Source of the DNA: Hyphomicrobiales bacterium
Lineage (GTDB): Bacteria; Pseudomonadota; Alphaproteobacteria; Rhizobiales; Beijerinckiaceae
Length of the DNA stretch: 64,000 nucleotides
Reading direction: 5' to 3'
Assembly (NCBI GenBank): GCA_019075905.1
Contig: JAGXAM010000002.1
Location: 1 to 64,000 of the forward strand
Positions 27,457 to 32,681 of the stretch are shown one piece after another (positions within the stretch are counted from its first letter, which is position 1; the number at the start of each line of letters is the position of its first letter). The position numbers and the translations under genes are program-made. The notes under the pieces are model-generated. The model was not told the origin of the DNA, ran no database searches, and was given only the letters and a program-made list of their open reading frames with translations.

Positions 27457-29988
27457 TCAGCCGGGCCCGGGCCGTCGCCGTCCGGAACGGCGCGGCCGCC
27501 CCTCGCCACCGCCGAAATTATGCGGCCCCATATCGGCATCGGTCGGCTTGCGGGCACGGCTCGGCAGGTTGGCAGCCGCGCCATACTTGCGCGTGCCACG
27601 AAAGGCCCCGGCCGCATCCTCGACATCCTGCTGGCGTGCCAGCGGATCACCCGCCAGCACCAGTTCTGTGGCCTGCAGCCGCTTGATTTCGTCGCGCAGC
27701 CGCGCCGCATCCTCGAAATCGAGGTTGGCCGCCGCCTCGCGCATGCGCTTTTCAAGGCCGGCCAGCGTCGTCTTCATATTATGCCCGACCAGCGCCCCCT
27801 GTGGTGCGAGGCCGGTATCGACGGTGACATGATCGGCCTCGTAGACCGAGCCGAGAATATCGGCGATGCCGCGCCGGATGGTTGCCGGCGTGATGCCATT
27901 TTCGGCATTATAGGCTTGCTGGCGGGCACGGCGCCGGTTGGTTTCGGTGATCGCCCGCTCCATGGAGCCGGTGATCTGGTCGGCATAGAGAATGACCTTG
28001 CCATCGACATTGCGGGCGGCACGGCCGATGGTCTGGATCAGCGATGTCTCCGAGCGCAGGAACCCTTCCTTGTCGGCATCGAGAATGGCCACGAGCGCGC
28101 ATTCGGGAATATCAAGGCCCTCGCGCAGCAGGTTGATGCCAACAAGCACATCAAACGCCCCAAGGCGCAAATCGCGCAGGATTTCAATGCGTTCGATCGT
28201 ATCAATATCCGAGTGCATATAGCGCACGCGCACCCCGTGCTCATGCAGATATTCGGTCAGGTCTTCGGCCATGCGCTTGGTGAGCACCGTCACCAGCGTG
28301 CGGAAGCCCTGCTGCGCCACCAGCCGCACCTCACCCAGCAGGTCATCGACCTGGGCGCGGGCCGGGCGGATTTCCACCGGCGGATCAATCAGCCCGGTCG
28401 GGCGGATCACCTGCTCGACGAAGACGCCGCCGGTCTGGTCCATCTCCCAGCCCCCCGGTGTCGCCGAGACATGCACCGTCTGCGGGCGCATCGCCTCCCA
28501 TTCCTCGAAGCGCAGCGGCCGGTTGTCGAGGCAGCTCGGCAGCCGGAAGCCATATTCGGCCAGCGTCGCCTTGCGCCGGAAATCGCCCTTGTACATGGCG
28601 CCGATCTGCGGCACCGTGACATGGCTTTCGTCGGTAAACACCAGCGCATTGTCGGGCAGATATTCAAACAGCGTCGGCGGCGGCTCGCCCGGCAGACGGC
28701 CGGTGAGATAGCGGCTGTAATTCTCGATTCCGGCGCATGAACCCGTCGATTCCAGCATTTCGAGATCAAAGGTCGTGCGCTGTTCCAGCCTTTGCGCCTC
28801 CAGCAGCCTGCCACCGCAATAAAGCTCCTCAAGCCTCGTCTTGAGCTCGGCCTTGATGGCCTTGATGCTTTGGATCAGCGTCGGGCGCGGCGTGACATAA
28901 TGGCTGTTGGCATAGACCTTGATAAATTCCAGCTCCTGCTGCCTGGTGCCCGTCAGCGGATCGAATTCATCAATCGATTCAACTTCGTCGCCAAAGAACG
29001 AAATGCGCCAGGCGCGGTCTTCGTAATGCGCCGGGAACAATTCGACAGTATCACCGCGCACCCGGAAATTGCCGCGGGCAAATTCGGGCGTGCGCTTGTA
29101 TTGCAAGGCCACCAGATCGGCGATGAGCTGGCGCTGGTCGATGCGCTCGCCGACTTTCAGGCCGAAAGTCATGGCCGTATAGGTCTCGACCGAGCCGATG
29201 CCGTAAATGCACGACACCGAGGCGACGATGATCACATCGTCACGCTCCAGCAAAGCCCGGGTGGCGGCATGGCGCATCCGGTCGATCTGCTCATTGATCG
29301 AGGATTCCTTCTCGATATAAGTATCGGTGCGCGGCACATAGGCTTCCGGCTGGTAATAATCATAGTAAGATACGAAATATTCCACCGCATTGTTCGGAAA
29401 GAAGCTCTTGAACTCGCCATAAAGCTGGGCCGCCAGCGTCTTGTTGGGCGCAAGGATCAGCGCCGGGCGCTGAGTCTTTTCAATCACCTGCGCCATGGTG
29501 AAGGTCTTGCCGGAACCAGTGACGCCGAGCAGCACCTGGTCGCGGTCATGCGCGGCAATGCCCTTCACCAGTTCGGCAATGGCCGTTGGCTGGTCACCCT
29601 TGGGCTCATAATCGCTGACGATCTCGAAGGCCTTGCCGCCTTCCCATTTCTCCGGCCGCGCCGGACGATGCGGCGTCCAAGGCTTTTTCGCCCGCAGGTT
29701 GGGGTCGCCCTCTTCCAGCAGCGCCTTCAGCGATTCGATGGTCGCGAGCGCGGGCGACACTTCCGGCGGGCGCGGGCGCACCCGCTTGGGATCATCGCCG
29801 GGCATGGTGACATTGCGGGCGAGGCTCTCGGCCAGAAACGCCGCCTGCGGGCTTTCGCCAAAGCCGCCAGCGGGCGGTTCGTTCAGCGCCGGGTTGAGCA
29901 GCGCCGCCAGATGCTCGTCAAGCGGCTGCACATCCGGGCGTCCGGATTTGGCGCGCGTGAGGCGTGAGGGAGCGGGAGCTTTAGCCAT
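27457..29988 (-). CDS. uvrB: UvrABC system protein B
   Basis: An 843-residue excision-repair helicase that loads at DNA damage with UvrA and recruits UvrC. The conserved protein begins at [17 protein letters not shown] (residue 121). Walker A is [15 protein letters not shown], the beta-hairpin region contains [12 protein letters not shown], and [23 protein letters not shown] and the C-terminal UVR motif ([28 protein letters not shown], near 750-780) are intact. The roughly 118-residue N-terminal extension is low complexity and probably disordered; similar extensions occur in related UvrB proteins. A basic Arg/Gly/Pro tail follows the UVR motif. Downstream by 112 bp is the ExbB-like gene. Confidence 0.97.
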
Positions 29989-30005
29989 AGGGGCAATATG
30001 GGGTG

Positions 30006-30165
30006 ATTCTGGTCTTGTGGGAAGGGTATGGCCTGAACATCCCTGCAGCCATGCCCCCGCATGAATCCCGCCATGCCCGCCCGGTCACACCGCGATTCCC
30101 GACAGATCATAGGCATCGCTGCCCTCGATTTTGACGCTGACTATGTCCCCGGCGCGCAGCGGACG
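30006..30165. repeat. Direct repeat alpha, copy A (rimO 3' end plus downstream DNA)
   Basis: A 160-bp segment matches 31283-31442 in the same orientation with 10 mismatches and no gaps by hand alignment. It runs from the intergenic base after uvrB through the equivalent of the last 27 rimO codons, then stops abruptly and joins repeat beta. Confidence 0.93.
30085..30165 (-). pseudogene. rimO 3'-terminal fragment
   Basis: Minus-strand codons here read [11 protein letters not shown] and continue to [10 protein letters not shown] with a TGA at 30085-30087, the C-terminus of the TRAM domain of RimO. The intact gene at 31362 has [11 protein letters not shown] at the same place. Of seven base differences in the shared coding part, six are silent and one gives Ala for Thr. 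The fragment has no start and is cut at its 5' side by repeat beta. Confidence 0.9.
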
Positions 30166-30251
30166 ATGCGGGCCATGTCGCTGGGTCGGTTGAAGGGATA
30201 GGTGCGCTTCGATAGCGACGATGGGGAATTGAAGCAAGTGTCACCGTAATT
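30164..30251. repeat. Direct repeat beta, copy A, ending in a REP-like palindrome arm
   Basis: An 88-bp segment matches 31199-31285 with four mismatches and one missing base. It ends with a 31-bp arm (30221-30251) that contains GAAGCAAGTGTCACCGTAAT. The same arm recurs inverted at 31114-31144 with one mismatch. The tail supplies the stop codon of the orphan gene on the minus strand. Confidence 0.9.
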
Positions 30252-30987
30252 TCCCGCGCAGCTTCGCGTCGAGCTCAGTGATCGCGTGATTGATTTCCTC
30301 AAAAGAAGGCATGCCCGTTTGTTGGATCCCACGAAATACAATCATCCAAAACAATGATGGCACCAATGCGTAAATTAAAGGATGTGTTTCTCTCACGAAT
30401 TCACGCGTCGGTAATGCAAATCCCTCAATAATATTGCTTAAACGAACGTCAGATTTGAATTTCAGCGCGTTATTGTAGTGCAGCCATTTTTGCGAAATCT
30501 GAGCTACGCATTGTTCGCACTCGGTATGGATGGTTTTTGCAAAATCTTGTTCCGAAGCTTGCTGGCTTTGGCCGACAACGCCGGCCCAATATGCTCCACC
30601 AATGACAAATACCAATATTCCGGGAGGGATGGACAGCCACCCTAGGAAATTCTGCCAGGCAGCGCGAGACACATAATAGCCGTAAGGTTGCATCATGTAG
30701 TAAACGCCAAAACACCCTAACATCCACGCGGCGATTAACACCGAGGTCAGTCGAACTGCCTTGTTTTGTGCGAACCGATTGTTCCGAGCGAACTCTTGAA
30801 TTAGCTCCGTTGACGCGGCGGCGGCCAGACCAGCAGCTACTGGCATGAAAATCCATCCCAGCCCCACCGGGATCACGCGCCTGCCGGAGGCGCTATCAAT
30901 GAGATAAACAAGCAACATCTCAAATGTCAGCATAAGGGCGAAGCCGAAACAGAAGGCTACCACCATAAGAATTCGGTGCATTGGCAT
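30241..30987 (-). CDS. Orphan multi-spanning membrane protein
   Basis: A 248-residue protein of no family I recognise. Hydrophobic segments lie at about 3-25 (ILMVVAFCFGFALMLTFEML), 42-57, 82-104 (VLIAAWMLGCFGVYYMM), 118-138 (FLGWLSIPPGILVFVIGGAYW) and 213-230 near the C-terminus. A soluble loop (about 140-205) has Cys-x-x-Cys in HTECEQCVAQ. Base composition is clearly lower in GC than the neighbours, roughly 45% by eye. Its TGA stop is formed by the flanking inverted repeat. The frame is open to 31098, but MPMHRILMVV at 30987 gives a sensible first helix. It is the only cargo of the cassette. Confidence 0.65.
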   Translation of the reverse strand: MPMHRILMVVAFCFGFALMLTFEMLLVYLIDSASGRRVIPVGLGWIFMPVAAGLAAAASTELIQEFARNNRFAQNKAVRLTSVLIAAWMLGCFGVYYMMQPYGYYVSRAAWQNFLGWLSIPPGILVFVIGGAYWAGVVGQSQQASEQDFAKTIHTECEQCVAQISQKWLHYNNALKFKSDVRLSNIIEGFALPTREFVRETHPLIYALVPSLFWMIVFRGIQQTGMPSFEEINHAITELDAKLRGKLR

Positions 30988-31113
30988 ACTTTCTGTTCGC
31001 GGCTTCGGCGGTGGCGTCAATTCTACGCAGCAACTCCACATCTCGATCATCGTGAGACGCGACGCCAGTTCGCAATTTTGGAAGCACGCATCGCGCATAT
31101 TTGCACGCCTCCA

Positions 31114-31144
31114 AATTACGGTGACACTTGCTTCATTTCCCCAT
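31114..31144. repeat. REP-like palindrome arm, inverted copy
   Basis: This 31-bp segment is the reverse complement of 30221-30251 with one mismatch, and contains ATTACGGTGACACTTGCTTC. With the first copy it brackets the orphan gene. The sequence type resembles REP palindromes mobilised by RAYT-family (Y1) transposases, from memory. The region 30988-31361 upstream of the orphan gene otherwise holds only repeats beta and alpha and a short unique stretch. Confidence 0.85.
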
Positions 31145-31198
31145 TATTTCCGCTTTCGCATGGCCCGCTTCGCTGGCCGCAACCGCAGACCCGGCAAG

Positions 31199-31285
31199 CG
31201 ATGCGGGCCGTGGCGCTGGGTCGGTTGAAGGGATAGGCGCGCTTCGATAGCGATGATGGGGATTGAAGCAAGTGTCACCGTAATT
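31199..31285. repeat. Direct repeat beta, copy B
   Basis: The second copy of repeat beta, in the same orientation as 30164-30251, lacking one A in the GGGGAATT stretch. It runs straight into alpha copy B, the two overlapping by the ATT at 31283-31285. The order is therefore beta-alpha here but alpha-beta in copy A. Confidence 0.9.
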
Positions 31286-31442
31286 CTGGTCTTGTGGGAA
31301 GGGTATGGCCTGAACATCCCCGCAGCCATGCCCTCGCATGAATCCTGCCATGCCCGCCCGGTCAGACCGCGATTCCCGACAGATCATAGGCATCGCTGCC
31401 CTCGATCTTGACGCTGACTATATCCCCGGTGCGCAATGGCCG
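31283..31442. repeat. Direct repeat alpha, copy B (3' end of intact rimO)
   Basis: This copy covers the last 27 codons and the stop of the functional rimO plus about 79 bp downstream. It is the partner of 30006-30165. Confidence 0.93.
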
Positions 31443-32681
31443 ACGGCTGCTGACATGGACAGCGCCGTCGATTTCTGGCGCGTCGGCCTTGCTCCGGCCC
31501 TTGGCCTTGAGCCCTTGCGTGCTGTCGATGATCACCGGCATGTGCCTGCCGACCTTGCCCTTCAGCTTTTTTGCGCTGATCGCCTGCTGATGCGCCATGA
31601 AACGGGCGTAACGCTCGGCCTTGACCTCATCGGGCACCACCGCCAGCCCAAGGTCATTGGCTTTGGCGCCGGTCACCGGTTCGTAGGGAAAGGCACCGAC
31701 CCGGTCGAGCCGGGCCTCGCTCAGCCAGTCCAGCAAAATCCTGAAATCATCTTCGGTTTCTCCCGGAAACCCGACGATGAAGGTCGAGCGAATGGCAAGA
31801 TCGGGGCATTGCCCGCGCCATGCCTTGATGCGCTCCAGCGTCTTTTTCTGGTCACCCGGCCGCTTCATCGCCTTCAGCACGGCGGGGCTGGCATGCTGGA
31901 ACGGAATGTCGAGATAGGGCAGCACCTTGCCCTCGGCCATCAGTTCGATCACATCATCGACATGCGGATAGGGATAGACGTAATGCAGCCTGATCCAGGC
32001 CCCGAGGCTGCCAAGCTCGCGGGCCAGATCGAGGAATCTGGTGCGCACCTCGCGCCCCTGCCATGCGCTCATCGGGTAGCCGCCATCGAGCCCATAGGCG
32101 CTGGTATCTTGCGAGATTACCAGCAGTTCCTTGACCCCGGCCTTCACCAGCTTCTCAGCTTCGCGCAGCACCTCGCCGGCCGGGCGCGACATGAGATCGC
32201 CGCGCAGTTTCGGAATGATGCAGAACGAGCAGCGGTTGTTGCAGCCTTCCGAGATTTTCAGATAGGCATAGTGGCGCGGCGTCAGCTTGATACCCTGCTC
32301 GGGCACCAGATCAAGAAACGGGTGATGCGGCGGCGGCGATGCCTCATGCACCGCCGTCATGACGCTTTCATAGGCCTGTGGCCCGGTAATGGCGCTGACC
32401 TGCGGATAGGTGGCGAGGATCGGCCCCGGCTCGGCACCCATGCAGCCGGTGACGATCACCTTGCCGTTTTCCCGCATGGCGGCACCGATAGCGGCCAGGG
32501 ATTCCGCCTTGGCGCTGTCGAGAAAGCCACAGGTATTGACGATCACCGCATCAGCGCCTTCGTGATGCCGCGATATTTCATAGCCCTCGGCGCGCAATTG
32601 CGTGATAATGCGCTCGGAATCGACGAGCGCCTTGGGGCAGCCCAGGGAGACGAAGGAAATTTTCGGTTGTGCACTTGTCAT
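31362..32681 (-). CDS. rimO: Ribosomal protein uS12 methylthiotransferase
   Basis: A 439-residue radical-SAM enzyme that adds a methylthio group to the conserved Asp of ribosomal protein S12. The N-terminal MTTase domain has [14 protein letters not shown] and [14 protein letters not shown] (Fe-S Cys). The radical-SAM cluster motif is [12 protein letters not shown] near 150. The C-terminal TRAM domain is present (VIIDSTQGL to the end at IAV). The last 27 codons are duplicated 1,277 bp away. The SLGCPK and [11 protein letters not shown] wording separates RimO from MiaB. Confidence 0.97.

Follow-up and report, generated by a model that had tools for sequence, protein, structure and literature searches.

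How does the 3' end of a housekeeping gene come to stand on both sides of an insert in which no recombinase can be found? The locus that raises this question lies in a window of 64,000 nucleotides, the whole stretch of DNA analysed (positions 1 to 64,000 of contig JAGXAM010000002.1 of the Hyphomicrobiales assembly GCA_019075905.1, a genome denoted G000 below). Integrase-dependent islands that settle at gene 3' ends leave a gene end on both sides of the insert, and a sequence-only reading of the window had proposed that a single integrative unit of this kind entered at rimO and regenerated it. Here, we studied the parts of the locus, their recurrence in the same genome and the corresponding sites in relatives.

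The repeat pair at the end of rimO

The gene rimO is complete (31362..32681, minus strand; 541 bits against TIGR01125 over residues 7-436 of 439), and its native downstream neighbour is uvrB (27457..29988, minus strand), recognised from its open reading frame and UvrB domains. Two direct copies of the rimO end, 164 nt long, 93% identical and spaced 1277 apart, were recovered by BLAST within the window (E 5.7e-68). Copy B (31280..31443, no strand assigned) is the end that is contiguous with the gene, together with downstream DNA that reaches up to a MITE. Copy A (30003..30166, likewise unstranded) is a displaced 3' end of about 26 rimO codons, still in frame up to a stop at 30085, with about 80 bp of downstream DNA, and it adjoins uvrB. 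The sequence-only reading had placed this pair, at about 160 bp each, correctly to within a few bases, and it was also right that copy B completes a working rimO and that copy A sits beside uvrB as a displaced end; nor was any recombinase found in the insert, as it had stated.

The site is empty in G001, a genome of the same genus: there GGGGTGATTCTGG and then one rimO end come after uvrB, with no insert. Such an empty site is what the sequence-only reading had said would support insertion; G001 is the sole relative examined in which uvrB and rimO are adjacent. In the stretches examined, the two genes are non-adjacent in G002 and lie on separate contigs in G003, and no uvrB match was found beside rimO in G011. 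Because the left junction between copy A and uvrB is identical to that in G001, copy A stands on the native side of the insert. Across the whole window, direct repeats of at least 40 nt and no more than 10 kb apart fell into three families, two of them at the rimO locus; apart from the third, 45 nt at 73% identity, nothing else in the window is like the A/B pair. A tRNA was rejected as the target, the sole tRNA of the window being at 142-235, and the single Rfam match (E 0.41) fell under its gathering score.

The 1277-bp cassette is not a single unit. It consists of three layers: a complete MITE, the right half of a sister copy of that MITE, and AT-rich passenger DNA between the two. The 862 bp between the MITE copies, which stand in direct order, have a GC content of 0.50 compared with 0.63 for the window, and the only open reading frame of note in the insert (30241..31098, minus strand) encodes a hydrophobic membrane protein of 285 aa whose stop codon falls inside the half MITE. 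No promoter for it was found within the MITE by consensus. Searches of Pfam, PHROGs, NCBIfam and PADLOC gave nothing significant for the passenger protein and, together with inspection of the open reading frames, found no recombinase, integrase or transposase of the insert's own. Weak relatives occur in two of the 247 other family genomes: one is a 111-aa protein resembling the C-terminal part of the passenger, and the other a 155-aa protein resembling its membrane part (G123, L064 1492-1956), tightly flanked by genes that, by eye, we take to be trpB and trpA. Ten stretches in genome contigs and four in viral contigs fitted the peptide pattern and none held up, and plasmids and phages gave none; the genome from which the window comes may be missing from these collections. 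An integrase or phage-satellite origin was rejected on these grounds, with no recombinase in the insert and no confirmed passenger relative in genome contigs, plasmids, viral contigs or phages.

The MITE, its copies and its kind of enzyme

The complete MITE, M (31114..31285, no strand assigned), is 172 bp long with terminal repeats of the RAYT/TIRYT type. Its ends are inverted repeats, AATTACGGTGACACTTGCTTC, and it folds on itself at -105 kcal/mol (RNA parameters). The half copy, R (30164..30251, plus strand), is fused to copy A within a 3-bp microhomology, CGA, at 30164-30166 in the middle of the MITE, about 8 bases from the predicted hairpin loop by our own count on the printed structure. 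R is 94% identical to R' (31199-31285), the right half of M; the two form the second direct repeat at the rimO locus and are each other's closest relatives among the MITE copies seen. The sequence-only reading had recognised the gene-end pair and had missed this second direct pair and the inverted repeats, which together are the MITE.

M is thus a short element, present in several copies and lacking a transposase gene. Its repeat core occurs 12 times in G000 at no more than 2 mismatches (0 times for a backwards control), and a sequence model built from these occurrences gave 15 matches at E <=1 in the same genome. These include five complete MITE pairs, at C5 31 kb, C5 71 kb, C30 74 kb, C2 21 kb and C25 32 kb, plus half copies; a second MITE considered at C30 75371-75655 was dropped for want of a clean hairpin fold. 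Outside G000 the family is scarce: three other genomes of the genus gave one weak model match (E 0.32), an exact 18-mer was found in one of 149 family genomes, namely G000 itself, and was absent from the other 148, and exact searches of genome contigs (20-mer) and viral contigs (18-mer) found none. The sequence-only reading had suggested looking for other copies of the insert in the genome; the MITE does recur there, but no other copy of the passenger gene was found. As a separate observation, TAATTCTGG occurs at the junction of the MITE and copy B (31280-31290) and again just after a displaced nuoF end described below (L154 9800-9815), which may be chance.

Which enzyme could move such an element? 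A resident Y1 transposase, which the sequence-only reading had suggested looking for, was rejected, with no match in G000 at E 0.01. Y1 transposase genes are present in 45 of 248 family genomes and in none of G000-G003. Among 30 Y1 loci scanned, ten had a core-like match, and five of these (L068, L069, L073, L082, L089) were set aside by context; the remaining five have repeats of the M type next to a REP-type Y1 gene, flanking it in L086, L090, L091 and L092 and on one side of it in L088. Like those of M, the two ends point outward in L086, L091 and L092; in L090 each side has pairs. Three of the proteins from these five loci were tested and scored 72-80 bits against the NCBI model for REP-associated tyrosine transposases, whose cut-off is 80, and model R1 had five matches in total in two of six Y1-bearing relatives. 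Since the same type of repeat stands beside REP-type Y1 genes in family genomes, M is best classified, on repeat type and gene context, as a putative non-autonomous element of the RAYT/TIRYT (TIRtron) kind, in a genome that yielded no enzyme of this type. The idea that the insert was moved by enzymes encoded elsewhere thus survives in part: the insert holds a non-autonomous element whose kind of enzyme occurs in other genomes, but no integrase was found.

Di Nocera and co-workers gave the names TIRtrons to Y1 genes with terminal inverted repeats and TIRYT to their enzymes, in the part of their account drawn on here (PMC3733652). Compared with the RAYT/TIRYT elements covered in that part and in the corresponding part of a second paper (REPINs and TIRtrons; PMC3733652, PMC6006769), M is alike in its Y1-side repeat type, its short non-coding hairpin and its dispersed pairs and halves; it differs in its few copies and in the lack of a detected Y1 transposase in the genome. 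Composites bounded by MITEs can themselves transpose, as the portion of the TIME-COMP report used here describes (PMC4133298). The rimO insert resembles TIME-COMP and mobile insertion cassettes, as portrayed in the consulted sections of PMC4133298 and PMC10969869, in having a passenger between MITE copies and no transposase of its own, but its repeats are of Y1 type rather than Tn3 type, and its left MITE is only half. A complete MITE end is not found on both outer sides of the passenger, the left copy being a right half; because the outer left end is missing, we do not class the insert as a MITE-bounded composite. In the titles and abstract openings of papers found on MITE composites, IS200 and TIRYT, no mention of MITE cassettes of Y1 type was seen, although some may have been published.

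Alternatively, a composite of the form MITE-passenger-MITE could have been carried into the gap between rimO and uvrB, after GATT, by a Y1 transposase supplied in trans, with aberrant processing in the same event leaving the gene-end copy. The sequence (G/A)AT(T) precedes M and other copies, whose last bases are (A)AT(T); the MITE ends in the window, at C30 and at C2 fit this target, the left end at C5 71 kb does not, and no lone MITE yielded a simple empty site. The direct order of the two MITEs around the passenger, and accessory genes found between MITE ends elsewhere, also speak for such a move. However, the left MITE is half a copy, the genome has no Y1 gene at the threshold given above, and the A/R junction is not made by any known step of Y1 transposition; we regard this route as quite improbable. 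One-ended transposition by a Y1 enzyme was rejected as the origin of copy A, since it leaves the A/R junction unexplained.

A second displaced end at nuoF

Following the MITEs through the genome, and looking at C30 for a site free of the MITE, revealed a second case. The 52-bp end of nuoF at C30 73721-73772 recurs at 75755-75806 (L154 7722-7773 and 9756-9807) with 98% identity and a spacing of 2034, the copies differing at one position, which is synonymous. Between them lie a DUF3291 gene that starts right after the nuoF stop, a MITE at C30 74249-74360 and an open reading frame of 310 aa with no Pfam match. The site is again empty in G001: about 135 bp after nuoF comes the sequence found on the far side of the displaced end in G000, with 86% identity over 4.5 kb. 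The topology is common to both loci: a whole gene with its end, MITE-bearing DNA, the displaced end, and the native downstream side. The nuoF join is not inside a MITE. In G003, a motif resembling the terminal repeat, GCTTGCTGTCACCGCG, was seen shortly downstream of nuoF (L156 ~4150), where G000 has the insert.

A duplicated gene end was found at two of the five complete-MITE loci, which is suggestive, but the loci are few and the nuoF case was itself reached through the MITEs. None was found at the C2, C5 71-kb and C25 MITE loci; flank repeats at C2 and C5 71 kb are half MITEs plus one pair at 75%, none of at least 24 nt and gene-end-like. We also searched 20 other stretches (396 kb), hand-picked and one of them including the C25 MITE locus, for direct pairs of 40-600 bp at 80% identity or more and 300-9000 bp apart, and found no gene-end duplication among them. 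The sole pair in these controls, L158 (86% over 175 bp), overlaps the end of an open reading frame, and both of its copies lie on a dispersed repeat.

The recurrence at nuoF bears on two other explanations. The first is an assembly or amplification artefact, a concern for a draft genome of 33 contigs; the 3-bp overlap at the rimO junction is too short for an assembler repeat error, and the same layout at a second locus argues against it as well, leaving an artefact very unlikely. The second is a small integrative or satellite-type element that targets gene 3' ends, carries a replacement end and relies on a recombinase encoded elsewhere. In its favour, two genes of this genome show a duplicated end and have an empty site in a relative, and the locus shares with integrase-dependent islands a gene end on both sides of the insert. 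The differences from such islands are the missing integrase, the lack of a common att core, the different targets and the unequal repeats, 164 bp at rimO and 52 bp at nuoF, in which comparison by eye found no common core. Moreover, the two inserts have only the MITE in common, and no related passenger was confirmed in the phage, plasmid, viral or genome collections. The layout, the empty site and the nuoF case thus uphold part of the integrative-element reading, while the absent integrase and the differing targets and repeat lengths tell against it; a single unit carrying a replacement end is not supported, given the fusion of copy A to mid-MITE sequence through 3 bp of microhomology and differences between the copies that suggest two alleles rather than an att duplication. 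We give an element of this kind little chance.

Two alleles or one copied end

The copies differ at 11 positions: one junction base (30005), three intergenic and seven coding, six of the latter synonymous. If 70% of changes were non-synonymous, one or fewer non-synonymous among seven would have a probability of 0.004. With polarity taken from G001, copy A has three derived coding changes, each of them synonymous, and copy B has three, while one could not be assigned; other relatives carry either base at several of the sites (17 of 18 loci compared gave a rimO end; L041 did not). That all three A-derived changes should be synonymous in a neutral copy has a probability of 0.02-0.03. Divergence is higher at synonymous sites (6 of about 24) than in the intergenic part (3 of 80, excluding the junction base 30005; Fisher P 0.004). 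Because the A/B coding differences are mostly synonymous and synonymous exceeds intergenic divergence, the sequences suggest that A and B were two alleles, each functional until they were joined, with few substitutions and weak polarity.

The strongest rival is a local duplication within one chromosome, in which a MITE half and the adjoining rimO end (31199-31443) were copied, either in tandem or through a template switch at the hairpin of the MITE, with later drift between A and B; the present order would then have come about through arrival of the passenger and a complete MITE, or through an outer MITE being excised. A tandem duplication of 31199-31443 would create precisely this A/R junction, with CGA as microhomology, and R and R', mutually closest, have diverged about as much as A and B (94% and 93% identity; about 6-7% divergence for both pairs). 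Against this, extra steps are needed, namely a precise loss of the left MITE and a later arrival of passenger and MITE; the coding differences are mostly synonymous, though copy A would have been free to drift; and a local duplication alone does not explain nuoF, where the repeat borders no MITE. Identity to G001 along rimO showed no clear step that would mark an imported tract. Since the sites are few, some relatives carry either base, the half MITEs have diverged to a similar degree and no identity step was seen, local duplication stays a serious rival, if a somewhat unlikely one.

The best explanation, to which we give about an even chance, is the addition of accessory DNA with MITEs by homology-facilitated illegitimate recombination rather than by a dedicated integrating enzyme. 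The passenger gene and MITE copies would have lain downstream of rimO in a related strain, and import could have gone either way, insert DNA into this lineage or empty-site DNA into an insert-bearing strain. The gene side would have been joined by homologous exchange and the other side illegitimately, at the CGA microhomology within the MITE hairpin. The product would be a whole rimO with end B, the MITE and passenger, and end A of the other allele on the native downstream side. Only events that keep the housekeeping gene whole would survive, mimicking an element that carries a replacement end; rimO would look regenerated because the gene must stay whole. Palindromes are substrates for SbcCD cleavage, and the MITE hairpin may have supplied the break. 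The parts themselves, the family of the MITE, the empty site in one relative and the nuoF case are shown directly; that a second allele was imported, that breakage or joining took place at the hairpin, in what order things happened and which way the DNA moved are what we infer.

Both rimO and nuoF combine a whole gene, other DNA and a displaced homologous end, as homology-facilitated illegitimate recombination predicts, and microhomology of the kind expected at an illegitimate junction is present at rimO (CGA). The process has been proposed for displaced immunity-gene arrays of T6SS and for Rhs ends, in the part of the paper used here (PMC5361080). Those cases, so far as that part describes them, share with ours a continuous gene body, added non-homologous DNA and a displaced 3' end; here the genes are housekeeping ones, the inserts carry MITEs and no donor allele was seen.

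The locus illustrates how a layout commonly taken for the footprint of an integrase can come about with no integrase involved, here at two core genes of a single genome, and low-copy MITEs of a single-strand (Y1) transposon family stand beside gene gain in a genome without such an enzyme found. Should more genomes show the association, displaced gene ends that lie next to MITEs and differ at synonymous sites would offer a signature for counting additive illegitimate recombination in nature. A broader proposal, that Y1/HUH-family MITEs serve in this lineage as handles for single accessory genes such as the 285-aa membrane gene, in units that settle at core-gene 3' ends, leave a duplicated end and use a transposase from outside the genome, we consider rather unlikely. 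Accessory genes between MITE ends do not prove capture, since accessory genes and mobile repeats often co-occur. At C5 71-74 kb a P-type ATPase gene with a C-terminal hemerythrin domain lies between a complete and a half MITE (L050 1582-1718 and 4104-4154) with ends facing inward; the half MITE and the far half of the complete MITE are 92% identical. G001 has no long match to the ATPase, and related sequence is present in G002 and G003 at 64-69% identity. At C2 (L052 1937-3865), the order is MITE, ClpX-zinc-finger gene, half MITE, phosphatase-like gene and half MITE, with the ClpX-zinc-finger gene between inward-facing ends; G001 lacks this segment and has about 10 kb of other DNA at the matching place. 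Close to the C5 pair, at L050 1442-1560, lies a dispersed repeat of about 110 bp that is not the MITE and has many copies, often clustered, in G000, G001 and G002.
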